DNA of 37,219 nucleotides from Candidatus Auribacterota bacterium (lineage in GTDB: Bacteria > Auribacterota > Tritonobacteria > UBA1439): assembly GCA_026392015.1 (NCBI GenBank), contig JAPLCW010000116.1:1-37219 (forward strand), read 5' to 3'. Shown here piece after piece: positions 23,309-37,080 of the stretch; position 1 is the first letter of the stretch; each line of letters starts with the position of its first letter. Below the pieces are notes generated by a model. That model ran no database searches, was not told the DNA's origin, and saw only the letters and a list, made by a program, of their open reading frames with translations. Made by a program: the position numbers and the translations under genes.

Positions 23309-23370
23309 CCCTCCCCCTCCGAAGGGGAGCCTGTGCTGAGCCTGCCGAAGCAAGGGTTGGGGTGGGGGTG
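23309..23370 (+). repeat. 62-bp direct repeat, copy 1
   Basis: Contains CCCTCCCCCTCCGAAGGGGA, GCCTGTGCTGAGCCTGCCGA and GGGTGGGGGTG. A nearly identical copy in the same orientation lies at 36151-36212. The ends (CCCTCCCCC and GGGTGGGGGTG) are mutually complementary. Confidence 0.85.
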
Positions 23371-24149: not shown

Positions 24150-24300
24150 TCCAGGACGTAATGGGTCAGTCTTGGGGGGTATCCCTTTCACTTGTCATCC
24201 CCGCGAAAGCGGGGATCCACTATGAAACCTGGATTCCTGCTTTCGCAGGAATGACATATTAAGCAATGTACCCCCCATAAGTGACCCCTTACTCCAGGAC
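24150..24300. mobile_element. Palindromic MITE with 8-bp target duplication, intact copy
   Basis: The element is 24158-24292: it begins GTAATGGGTCAGTCTTGGGG and ends TGACCCCTTAC, with TIRs matching over GTAA-GGGTCA and TGGGGGGTA. It is flanked by TCCAGGAC at 24150-24157 and 24293-24300, a perfect 8-bp duplication. Inside are two hairpins: CCCCGCGAAAGCGGGG and CCTGCTTTCGCAGG. No coding capacity. GTAA ends and 8-bp duplication suggest IS66-type mobilisation. Confidence 0.87.
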
Positions 24301-26206: not shown

Positions 26207-26350
26207 GCAAGGGGTCACTTATGGGGGGTACATTGCTTAATATGTCATTCCTGCACTTCGACTGCGCTCAGTGTAAACTCGAGCAGGAATCCAGGTTTCA
26301 TAGTGGATCCCCGCTTTCGCGGGGATGACAAGTGAAAGGGATACCCCCCA
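26207..26350. mobile_element. Inverted, truncated MITE copy with replaced hairpin loop
   Basis: Reverse complement of the element at 24158-24292. As far as I can read, 26209-26350 is identical to 24173-24290 except that the four-base loop of one hairpin is replaced by a 28-base sequence containing ACTTCGACTGCGCTCAGTG. The outer end is kept (GCAAGGGGTCA), but the 15 terminal bases on the protease side are missing and the protease frame follows directly. Confidence 0.87.
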
Positions 26351-26437
26351 GGCATCACTCTGTACAAGGATGGGAAACCGGTAGATCAGGCCGAGGCCGT
26401 TACAATAGGGAAGGCGCAGTCTCAGACTATAGACAAG

Positions 26438-28507
26438 ATGAATGGGGAGTCACAAGAGCCCCTCTCCGTGAAATACAACGAGAAGGGGGTGCCATTCATC
26501 GTCTCGGGAAGATTTGACCTGGGCGTCGGCGCAACGAAAGGCGGCGCGGGTGAAGAGACCGCGGTGCGCAGGTTCCTGAACGAGAACAAGGACCTTTTCC
26601 GCATGTCTGATGCCCATAGCGAGTTGAAGACCCGCAGCAACGAAACCGATCAGTACGGCCTGCGGACGATCAGATTTACACAGCAGTACAAAGAGATTCC
26701 CGTGTATGGCGGCGATCTCGTCGCGAGCCTTGACAGGGACGGCAGGCTCACCTCAGTCAATGGCAATTACCTGCCTGACATCTCCGTAACCACCGTGCCG
26801 CGCGTCTCCGCGGAAGAGGCACTCGCAATTGCCAAAGCCGTTCTCGGCATAGCCGATGAAAATGTGCGCACCATCATCGGCCCGGAGCTGATGATCTATC
26901 CGAAGGACGGCGTCTATCACCTCGCATGGTGCCTCACACTTGTCACCTCAAAGCCGTTCGCGGAGTGGAAATGTTTTGTGGACGCGCATGCCGGCGCACT
27001 TATCGATAAATGGAATGACGCGAAATATGCAGACGTTATGTTGACGGGTACCGGCGTCCTCGGAGAATCTCTAAATCTGCACGGCTGGAGCATGAACTAC
27101 ACATTTTGTTACTGGCTGGATATCCTTTACTTCGGTTCCCCGTGGTATGATCTGTATGGGGTGGGGGCCAACGGCAATTCACTCATTGACACAAGCAAAT
27201 CAATGTACAACCCCGCCACGCAAATAGGATACATAGATACCCGCAATCTGCTCGGAGGCGACGTGCTCTCAGGCTATTTCCCTACCCGCATGTGTGTGAC
27301 CTCCGTCACCACGAATTATAATTCCATCTATTACGGCTTTATGGCACGGAGCGATTTCTCGGGGCATCATCACGCGGGCATGATATACGATTACTTGAAA
27401 GAACATTTCGGGAGGAACAGCATTGACGGCAACGGCATGAATATGGTTATTAATGTTGATTGCATGTTCGGGTCCGATGCTACGAATGCTATGTGGTCGA
27501 GGGGCGTTGCGGGTCTCGAACAGGGCGCTACGTTTTTTGGCGGGGGTGATGGAGCCACTGCACGTTCACAGTCGGGCTCGCTCAGTTGTGTTACTCACGA
27601 GTTTACGCACGGTGTCACCAACTACACCAGCAACCTAGAATACAAGAACCAATCCGGCGCGATCAATGAGGGATTCTCCGATTCATTCGCGTATGCCCTT
27701 GAGGCGGGGCTGGGCTTCCCAAACCCGGAGCGGTACAATGGAGAGGGATGCTGGCTTGCCTCTCCGGGCTATTGCCGGAACCTTCAGGATCCGCACCAGG
27801 GATATAATCCCAATCCGTATTCGTTCGGCGCATGGCCTGCCACCATGGACGAGTACCAGAATGTTCCCGAGAGTCAGGACAATGGGGGAGTGCACATCAA
27901 CCAGTGCATCATCTCTCACTGCTTCTACCTGATCTGCCAGGCGATCGGCGTCGCAAAGGGCGAGCAGATATGGTACAAGACGCAGACGCAGAAATGCACG
28001 ACGACAACTAACTTCACGCAATTGAGAGAACTGGCGCTCAGCGCCTGCAGCGATCTCGGATACGGAATAGGGAGCGGCGAGTACTCCGCCGTAATGAACG
28101 CCTTTGCCTCCATCGGCATCGGCGGAATGGACGGAGGGGGTGGGGGTGGAGGCGGCGCGGGGACCGTCTACCACGCGGGCGATGCTCTTACGGTGACGGT
28201 CACGGTACCCGCGATATCCGGTTCCGCCATATTTGACGGTTACTCCGTGGCGCTCCTCCCCAGCGGAGGAGTGATGGCCGTTTGGAATAATGCGGTAACG
28301 CCATATAAGGCGCCGATCGCGACGAGAGTTCCCGGCTTCTCGGGAGGGACCTACACTCTTCTGAGCACCACAATCCCCCCGGGAACGCAGCCGGGTACCT
28401 ACACCTTCGTTGTAGCGCTCATCTACACGGGACAGAATCCGCGCAACTACAAGACAAGTCCCTCGACCGCGGTCTGGTACGCCGAGCGCGCAGTGAATAT
28501 TCAGTAA
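26438..28507 (+). CDS. M4 (thermolysin-type) metalloprotease, 5' end probably lost
   Basis: 689 residues from ATG 26438; the frame is open from 26336 and the bases 26351-26437 look coding (GITLYKDGKPVDQAEAVTIG), so the true start is missing. FTP and PepSY propeptide regions occupy about 13-190. Zinc site HEFTH (387-391) plus E411 in NEGFSD; active-site H486 in DNGGVHINQ. A Gly-rich hinge (near 566-575) leads to a C-terminal beta-sandwich module (577-689). No signal peptide remains: a truncated MITE abuts the coding sequence at 26350. It may be expressed without export or be a recent pseudogene. Confidence 0.93.
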   Translation: MNGESQEPLSVKYNEKGVPFIVSGRFDLGVGATKGGAGEETAVRRFLNENKDLFRMSDAHSELKTRSNETDQYGLRTIRFTQQYKEIPVYGGDLVASLDRDGRLTSVNGNYLPDISVTTVPRVSAEEALAIAKAVLGIADENVRTIIGPELMIYPKDGVYHLAWCLTLVTSKPFAEWKCFVDAHAGALIDKWNDAKYADVMLTGTGVLGESLNLHGWSMNYTFCYWLDILYFGSPWYDLYGVGANGNSLIDTSKSMYNPATQIGYIDTRNLLGGDVLSGYFPTRMCVTSVTTNYNSIYYGFMARSDFSGHHHAGMIYDYLKEHFGRNSIDGNGMNMVINVDCMFGSDATNAMWSRGVAGLEQGATFFGGGDGATARSQSGSLSCVTHEFTHGVTNYTSNLEYKNQSGAINEGFSDSFAYALEAGLGFPNPERYNGEGCWLASPGYCRNLQDPHQGYNPNPYSFGAWPATMDEYQNVPESQDNGGVHINQCIISHCFYLICQAIGVAKGEQIWYKTQTQKCTTTTNFTQLRELALSACSDLGYGIGSGEYSAVMNAFASIGIGGMDGGGGGGGGAGTVYHAGDALTVTVTVPAISGSAIFDGYSVALLPSGGVMAVWNNAVTPYKAPIATRVPGFSGGTYTLLSTTIPPGTQPGTYTFVVALIYTGQNPRNYKTSPSTAVWYAERAVNIQ

Positions 28508-36150: not shown

Positions 36151-36212
36151 CCCTCCCCCTCCGAAGGGGAGCCTGTGCTGAGCCTGCCGAAGCAAGGGCC
36201 AGGGTGGGGGTG
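36151..36212 (+). repeat. 62-bp direct repeat, copy 2
   Basis: Nearly identical to 23309-23370, differing at two adjacent positions before the final G-rich run. Confidence 0.85.
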
Positions 36213-36255: not shown

Positions 36256-37080
36256 GACCAATAGATTCTATAGTTCAACTTTTGTATCTGCGTACTCTGC
36301 GTTCATCTGCATCCTGAACAGCGTTTAGATTGGACGCAGATTGTCGCAGATGAACGCAGACTGTCTCCGTGCTCTCCGTGGTGAGACATTATTGCCCTCC
36401 CGTATTGAAATTTTACAAGGAAGATCTTATTTAATCCATCCCCAATTCCGTTGCGGATCAATAGATTCCATAGTTCTAATTTTATATCTGTGTACTCTGC
36501 GTTCATCTGCGTCCTGAACAGCGTTTAGATCGGACGCAGATTGTCGCAGGTGAACGCAGATAAGGTGTCACCATTGCGTGGCAAGGAATAGCCGTTATGT
36601 GGCCATGTGTCATTATTGTTATGGGGTGTTCGAGATATCCCACCTCACAACCTCCCCCTTCTGAGGGGGGAGGGAATAGCTAAAGTAATCCACACAAAAA
36701 TGGAAGAGAGCCTCAAATAATTGTATGGAAGATTTCATTTATTCCATTCCCCCTATCGCATTGCGGATCAACAGATTCTACAGTTCAATTTTTGTATCTG
36801 CGTACCCTGCGTTCATCTGCGTCCTATACAGCATTTAGATTGGACGCAGATTGTCGCAGATGAACGCAGATAAGATATCGCCATTACCTAGCGTAATGCG
36901 TCTAACACTTCTTTACATATTTACTGTTATTCCCGCGCAGGCGGGGATCCAGAAGAACAGCTCTGCGGCCTGGATCCCCGCTTTCGCGGGGATGACAAAG
37001 ATAAAGAGGCTTATGACGCACTACACTAGCAATGAATAGCCGCTACATGGCCATGTGTCATTAATATTACAGGGTGATCG
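36256..37080 (+). repeat. Three tandem copies of a TCTGCGTTCATCTGCG repeat block
   Basis: Copies at 36256-36362, 36417-36632 and 36721-37080. Each has ATAGATTCTATAGTTC-like sequence, then CTGCGTTCATCTGCGTCC, CAGCGTTTAGAT, and the inverse GGACGCAGATTGTCGCAGAT. Copies 2 and 3 also share flanks (TTGCGGATCAA before, GGCCATGTGTCATTA after). Copy 3 is split by another element. No protein-coding gene is supported in 36087-37219. Confidence 0.85.
36888..37030. mobile_element. 133-bp palindromic MITE inserted in repeat copy 3
   Basis: Element 36893-37025 begins GTAATGCGTCTAACAC and ends GGCTTATGACGCACTACA. It contains TCCCGCGCAGGCGGGGATCC and its inverted partner GGATCCCCGCTTTCGCGGGG. CTAGC flanks it on both sides (36888-36892 and 37026-37030). 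Removing the element plus one CTAGC gives a 23-base segment aligning base for base in length with the uninterrupted copy 2. Confidence 0.85.

Follow-up and report, generated by a model that had tools for sequence, protein, structure and literature searches.

The closest described relatives of the hairpins analyzed here are the CGTC REPs, which are reported to have no transposase of their own and not to lie beside RAYT genes; the CGTC-1 family includes the Neisseria dRS3 repeats, and heterodimers are favored among CGTC REPs without an obvious explanation (Di Nocera et al. 2013, PMC3733652). The RAYT/GTAG REPs, recognized in E. coli by TnpA-REP, occur as dimers of short hairpins that bear a tag and in which unpaired bases have a function. 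In addition, IS1397, ISKpn1 and IS621 are insertion sequences that target REPs (PMC1525189).

The hairpins of the present locus share with CGTC-1 (PMC3733652) the TGTC/CGTC head, the 8-bp stem starting from A-T pairs, the 4-nt loop of the short form and the CCA tail, as well as the arrangement in dimers, with heterodimers favored and no flanking RAYT gene. Whereas CGTC-1 loops measure 4 to 5 nt, a large share here measure 26 to 38 nt and are mostly nested hairpins that include the bulge TAAACTC; furthermore, the REP dimer is here the cargo of an element with terminal inverted repeats (TIRs) and target duplications. This element resembles bacterial MITEs in its TIRs, its 8-bp duplications, its lack of coding capacity and its many near-identical copies. 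The RAYT/GTAG REPs are similar in their tags, unpaired bases and dimers; they differ in that the head of our main family is TGTC and not GTAG (one other family has GTAGTCAT at that place), and in that we found no Y1 gene flanked by these REPs in the manner of a RAYT gene. As with IS1397, ISKpn1 and IS621 (PMC1525189), a mobile unit lies inside a REP hairpin, but these are whole insertion sequences, whereas the module here comprises 26 to 28 nt and has no coding capacity.

Two copies of one element differ at a hairpin loop

The window, i.e., the entire stretch of 37,219 nucleotides analyzed, contains two copies of one element in opposite orientations, which were aligned after reverse-complementing copy A. 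Their features, with the basis of each assignment, are as follows.

24158..24292, minus strand (chosen to read like copy B): MITE copy A, 135 bp, intact, tetraloop in both hairpins (TIRs, length, alignment)
24150..24157, no strand: left 8-bp target duplication of copy A, TCCAGGAC (exact match)
24293..24300, no strand: right 8-bp target duplication of copy A, TCCAGGAC (exact match)
24195..24219, plus strand: C-type REP hairpin of copy A, TCATCCCCGC-GAAA-GCGGGGATCCA (alignment, pattern search)
24230..24254, minus strand: T-type REP hairpin of copy A, TCATTCCTGC-GAAA-GCAGGAATCCA, loop at 24241-24244 (alignment, pattern search)
26207..26350, plus strand: MITE copy B, truncated on the right and lacking a target duplication, with a 28-nt tip in the T-type hairpin (alignment)
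26245..26293, plus strand: T-type REP hairpin of copy B with nested tip (alignment, stem score)
26255..26282, plus strand: 28-nt tip of copy B in the GAAA position (alignment)
26254..26273, plus strand: inner hairpin of copy B, CACTTCGACTGCGCTCAGTG (pair counts of homologues)
26274..26280, plus strand: conserved bulge TAAACTC of copy B, GAGTTTA on the other strand (conservation in homologues)
26304..26328, minus strand: C-type REP hairpin of copy B with tetraloop (alignment)

In agreement with the original prediction, the copies differed solely at one loop, with both flanks identical in the alignment: the four bases GAAA of copy A (TTTC on the plus strand) are replaced in copy B by the 28 bases ACTTCGACTGCGCTCAGTGTAAACTCGA. 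The palindromic word that the prediction had noticed within these 28 bases, CACTTCGACTGCGCTCAGTG (26254-26273), was confirmed, except that it starts one base earlier, in the stem. Likewise, the description of copy B as otherwise identical holds for both loop flanks, but its right end has been lost and it has no target duplication. The frame of an M4 (thermolysin-type) peptidase (26350-28507) is open up to this truncated end, upstream of the first start in the list of reading frames. Either the 5' end of the peptidase gene may have been removed by the element, or the two sequences may have been joined wrongly during assembly. A third REP hairpin pair in the window (36925-36998) is not of the main MITE family.

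The element is a MITE carrying two REP hairpins

The genome, apparently metagenome-derived, comprises 3.85 Mb in 216 contigs. We analyzed 60 stretches totaling 1.0 Mb, including the window, which were picked at known elements and Y1 genes and are therefore enriched for both. In this sample, 200 hairpins matched the search pattern, and there were 68 paired elements, of which 61 had the main spacing. The element is a MITE because it ends in TIRs (GTAAKGGGTCA.. in the genome sample) and is flanked by 8-bp target duplications, which were exact in 27 of 36 testable copies and had one mismatch in another 3, as compared to 0 of 1,260 mismatched pairs in the control. Intact copies measure 135 to 193 bp, a length set mainly by the tips.

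The MITE interior consists of two inverted CGTC-type REP hairpins. Genome-wide, the core CTTCGACTNCGCTCAG occurs 163 times and the outer-hairpin pattern requiring ATCCA, and with it the CCA tail of CGTC REPs, 336 times; both figures are far above chance, since the reversed or control patterns gave 0 matches in each case. Chance occurrence and dispersal of the word outside hairpins were ruled out by these control counts and by the placement in hairpins of the copies in the 1.0-Mb sample. The main-family hairpins inspected have a TGTCAT head; in other families, the head of some hairpins is AGTC. The stems ATTCCTGC/GCAGGAAT and ATCCCCGC/GCGGGGAT measure 8 to 9 bp and start with A-T pairs, as in CGTC REPs. 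A loop of 4 to 5 nt was present in 85 of the 200 hairpins, and tips of 25 to 38 nt in about 109.

The ends of IS66 elements read GTAA, as do those of the present element. With the one IS66 family profile tried, a single PF03050 match below the cut-off was obtained and no cognate transposase was found; an IS66 transposase was provisionally set aside as the enzyme of the MITE. The element had no match in phage or plasmid records and the tips none in viral contigs, which speaks against carriage by phages or plasmids. Rfam returned two sub-threshold microRNA matches between 24000 and 26500, both outside the elements. Nested tips recur in a second species of the genus (L109/L193), the element at L193 being the one of the same-genus genome G001 (L109).

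Tips are discrete, and the long ones share a nested structure

The original prediction had described one loop swap; however, such swaps are common across the genome. The tips fell into discrete types and not into a gradual series, namely, tetraloops (85 of the 200 hairpins of the 1.0-Mb sample), 28-nt tips (59), 26-nt tips (42) and 38-nt tips (8). Each of the first three types occurs on more than one stem, the 28-nt tip being found on C-type, T-type and TGTCCTGAG..CCGAAGGAT stems. As foreseen, the inserted word is a feature of hairpins: judged by their flanks, all 86 copies of the 27-base word (at most one mismatch) in the 1.0-Mb sample lay in two REP hairpin types. An outer stem of at least 5 pairs was present in 79 of them, using a score for contiguous stems that allows tandem G.A pairs and was adopted after a first score had saturated without separating sites from controls.

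What had been overlooked initially is the conserved structure of the long tip. The tips of 26 and 28 nt are not random loops but consist of an inner hairpin and a nearly invariant bulge, TAAACTC, which was exact in 87 of 101 such tips of the genome sample, with TAAA in 100 and TAAACTT in many of the others. On the GAGTTTA strand, the outer stem is followed by a bulge whose last bases are GAGTTTA, then by the inner hairpin and finally by the outer stem again. This is the probable folding strand, because its T.G wobbles correspond to C.A mismatches on the other strand. Within the phylum, the outer stem plus TAAACTC was detected in 8 of 43 genomes, including that of the window, and not in the reversed control, although two of these genomes (G011 and G015) have one match each that lacks a clear inner hairpin and may be due to chance. 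The inner hairpins vary among the genomes and include CCCTCGCGAAAGCGGGGG, TCCCTTACAAGATAAGGGG and TCCTCGACTCCGATCGAGGA. In an alignment of 22 distinct sequences, 91.3% of the cells were paired, as compared to at most 49% when slid, and covariation amounted to 0.412 versus 0.159 ± 0.020 for shuffles. Compensatory changes were seen in 7 of 13 pairs, and pair-preserving changes in both stems; the sequences were gathered by requiring TAAACTC and outer-stem letters, which partly builds in the invariance of the bulge but not the covariation of the inner stem.

The conserved bulge and the covarying stems imply constraint, and it could be argued that selection is the sole cause of the pattern: both tips would be alternative working forms of a single regulatory structure, in RNA or DNA, that selection keeps or removes, and exchange would be rare and incidental. 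Selection, however, cannot generate a change of tip without a change of flank, and many copies look recent, with identical backbones and exact duplications, so that we regard this explanation as very improbable.

Tip exchange is confined to the hairpin

Three backbones, b1, b2 and b3, were named after the linker base. In the first hairpin, tetraloop and 28-nt tip are both present on each backbone; in the second, tetraloop, 28-nt and 26-nt tips are all found on each. Nine copies with an identical loop-flanking backbone (113 columns) show four tip combinations. Markers to the left of loop 1, between the loops and to the right of loop 2 were completely linked (V = 1.00), and left and right alleles agreed in 54 of 54 scorable copies, whereas V between loop state and flank markers was 0.31 to 0.47. 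Around the first hairpin, the interval between the nearest markers amounts to about 25 bp plus the loop: V was 0.95 between left32 and linker58, as compared to 0.20 between loop 1 and left32 and 0.32 between loop 1 and linker58. On a backbone tree, 13 and 12 tip changes contrasted with 4 for the linker SNP, counts that are rough since the tree is weakly resolved. Because spanning markers never recombine and the main tips nevertheless occur on every backbone, exchange is restricted to the hairpin: tips reassort among copies as discrete modules, and flanking sequence is not exchanged. The exchanged piece sometimes includes part of the stem, as the stem variant CCCGG accompanies the 28-nt tip in the first hairpin (V = 0.73) on all three backbones.

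These data bear on the possibility that ordinary recombination among old MITE subfamilies, by gene conversion or crossing over, reshuffled old loop variants, with nothing special about the hairpin. Long identical flanks common to the copies, the weak linkage of both loop states to the backbone and the existence of mosaic backbones (5 copies combine b1 flanks with the b3 linker) are compatible with such recombination. It is nonetheless unlikely in our view, since the concordance of the markers spanning both loops leaves no marker-long tracts to set against some 25 tip changes on the tree, and since it does not account for the same tips on other element families, stems and phyla.

Blending of loops during short-read assembly of near-identical repeats was also considered. 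The assembly has 216 contigs, several of which end inside elements, and the truncated end of copy B runs in frame into the peptidase gene, as might be the case in a misjoin. On the other hand, informative markers lie within roughly 65 nt of each loop in either direction, a distance shorter than a typical read; in this assembly, loops and bracketing markers are within one read length, and two-tip combinations with outer flanks are less secure, as is, given the many contigs, the assignment of tips to loci. Moreover, tip-backbone combinations recur on separate contigs with exact target duplications, and nested tips occur in independently assembled genomes, including the second species of the genus and other phyla. 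We regard an artefact as very improbable.

The 28-nt tip was not found in both hairpins of any of the 61 elements, as compared to 5.7 expected after shuffling within backbones (P = 0.0001, a value that is optimistic because the copies are related by descent). Two 28-nt tips in one element would constitute a longer inverted repeat.

Other repeats show comparable variation. A family at 23309-23370 and 36151-36212 of the window has the short tip CTTCGGCAGGCTCAGCACAGG, and relatives (e.g., G000:C4:9927) have at that place a long tip containing CCCTTCGACTGCGCTCAGGG; judging from these sequences, tip exchange perhaps extends beyond CGTC-type REPs. In a third family (G000:C25:4363, C26:13481 and C12:9709), CTTCGGCAAG + CTCA + GGACAAG alternates with CTTCGGCAAG + GTCCCTTCGACTTCGCTCAGGGTCTTCGACA + GGACAAG, the short form reading CTTCGGCAAGCTCAGGACAAG. 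Another genome of the phylum (G016, e.g., C24:38405 and C53:71126) harbors the short AGGCTTCAA and the long AGGCTTCAACGAAATAGCCCCTGTGGGGTAA tip on one stem, without TAAACTC. An odd tip, GAAACTTGTCCTCACGAAAGCGGGGA, at G000:C63:22539-22585 (minus strand) resembles a hybrid of tip types and may be the trace of an exchange.

Related tips in other phyla

The exact 27-mer CACTTCGACTNCGCTCAGTGTAAACTC was found in 18 stretches from Patescibacteria, Bacteroidota, Spirochaetes, Chloroflexota, Ignavibacteriales, Auribacterota and one unclassified bacterium. It mostly occupies the CGNA-tip position of REP-like stems, for example, GTCATTCTGAG[M]CGCGAAGAATC and GCCCTGAG[M]CGTCGAAGGGC, where M is the 27-mer. 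A contiguous outer stem of at least 5 pairs was present in 14 of the 18 stretches, as compared to 6% of random sites; L199 and L203 have practically no outer stem, and the stretches from Bacteroidota are the least convincing. Uninterrupted tips, GAGCGNAGNCGA, were abundant in the 13 host genomes tested. With a looser pattern, Patescibacteria gave 21 matches in 14 of 287 genomes versus 9 in the reversed control, so that some are due to chance; about two thirds of the matches have an inner hairpin, of several kinds, and REP-like outer context. One spirochaete contains three different inner hairpins, each with TAAACTCCG. As judged by sequence pattern and predicted stems, the 27-mer, or TAAACTC with other inner hairpins, caps REP-like stems in Patescibacteria, Spirochaetota, Chloroflexota and Ignavibacteriales and, less surely, in Bacteroidota.

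Six module sequences had no occurrence in the literature searched, and the REP literature examined does not describe the nested tip. A bolder proposal would be that a hitherto undescribed class of REP tip is common to bacteria, composed of inner hairpin and TAAACTC bulge, and that it is recognized by a dedicated factor and passed from tip to tip via folded single strands, whatever the stem and across phyla; we consider this doubtful.

Candidate enzymes and mechanism

The original prediction had proposed exchange targeted to the hairpin by a REP/RAYT (TnpA-REP) or IS200-like enzyme. Confinement to the hairpin is borne out by marker linkage, the backbone tree and the presence of one tip on many stems, but the link to a RAYT/Y1 enzyme is not. 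The genome does encode Y1 transposases, 14 in total, but none is flanked by these REPs in the way expected of a RAYT. In the stretches read, one MITE lay 53 bp from a Y1 gene (C102:35690), and the other Y1 genes had none within 1.7 kb; ten Y1 proteins had no relative in module-bearing loci of other genomes. Neither analysis revealed an association with a RAYT.

A single-strand HUH/Y1 RAYT-like enzyme that inserts or swaps the GAGTTTA-plus-hairpin module at tips would agree with several features besides the number of Y1 genes: on one strand the module consists of tail plus hairpin, like a tagged REP, its orientation relative to the TGTC head was constant in the copies examined, and E. coli TnpA-REP recognizes unpaired bulges and a tag in folded single-stranded DNA (PMC8266576). 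We judge its involvement improbable, given that these REPs do not flank Y1 genes, that the copies examined were all in hairpins with no free-standing module seen, and that four bases were replaced rather than sequence merely added.

Our preferred reading, to which we assign a probability of about 0.5, is that the MITE carries an inverted pair of CGTC-type REPs whose tips are copied from hairpin to hairpin, that it is amplified by a TIR-directed process, and that TAAACTC is recognized. Synthesis would stall or break at an extruded hairpin and would then take the hairpin of another copy as template, primed by the stem and flank that the copies have in common, and would thus leave everything but the tip unaltered. 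New tip combinations would subsequently be multiplied by TIR-directed transposition, and the long tip would be retained since some factor would recognize TAAACTC in the nested fold, as single-stranded DNA or RNA.

Several points speak against hairpin-confined copying. The conversion tracts, at about 25 bp plus the loop, barely reach or fall short of the homology that RecA usually needs, and differing stems (TCCTG, CCCCG and CTGAG) offer little homology for priming; stem priming does not account for tip movement between very different stems or between phyla. Exchange is not always limited to the loop, as the CCCGG variant moves with the 28-nt tip. The obvious hairpin nuclease, SbcD (TIGR00619), had no match in the palindrome-rich window genome, which is 94% complete, whereas 13 of 14 control genomes matched; it is either absent or was missed, and SbcCD was set aside as the trigger of exchange. 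A genome devoid of SbcD may be more tolerant of palindromes.

Implications

CGTC-type REPs are widespread and have no known transposase, and here they are carried as cargo of an element with TIRs and target duplications. The change of tips without a change of flanks makes hairpin-confined exchange directly testable, and the conserved motif in a covarying long tip provides a concrete probe for a binding partner. The exclusion of two identical long tips from one element bears on the preference for heterodimers that was described as unexplained (PMC3733652).
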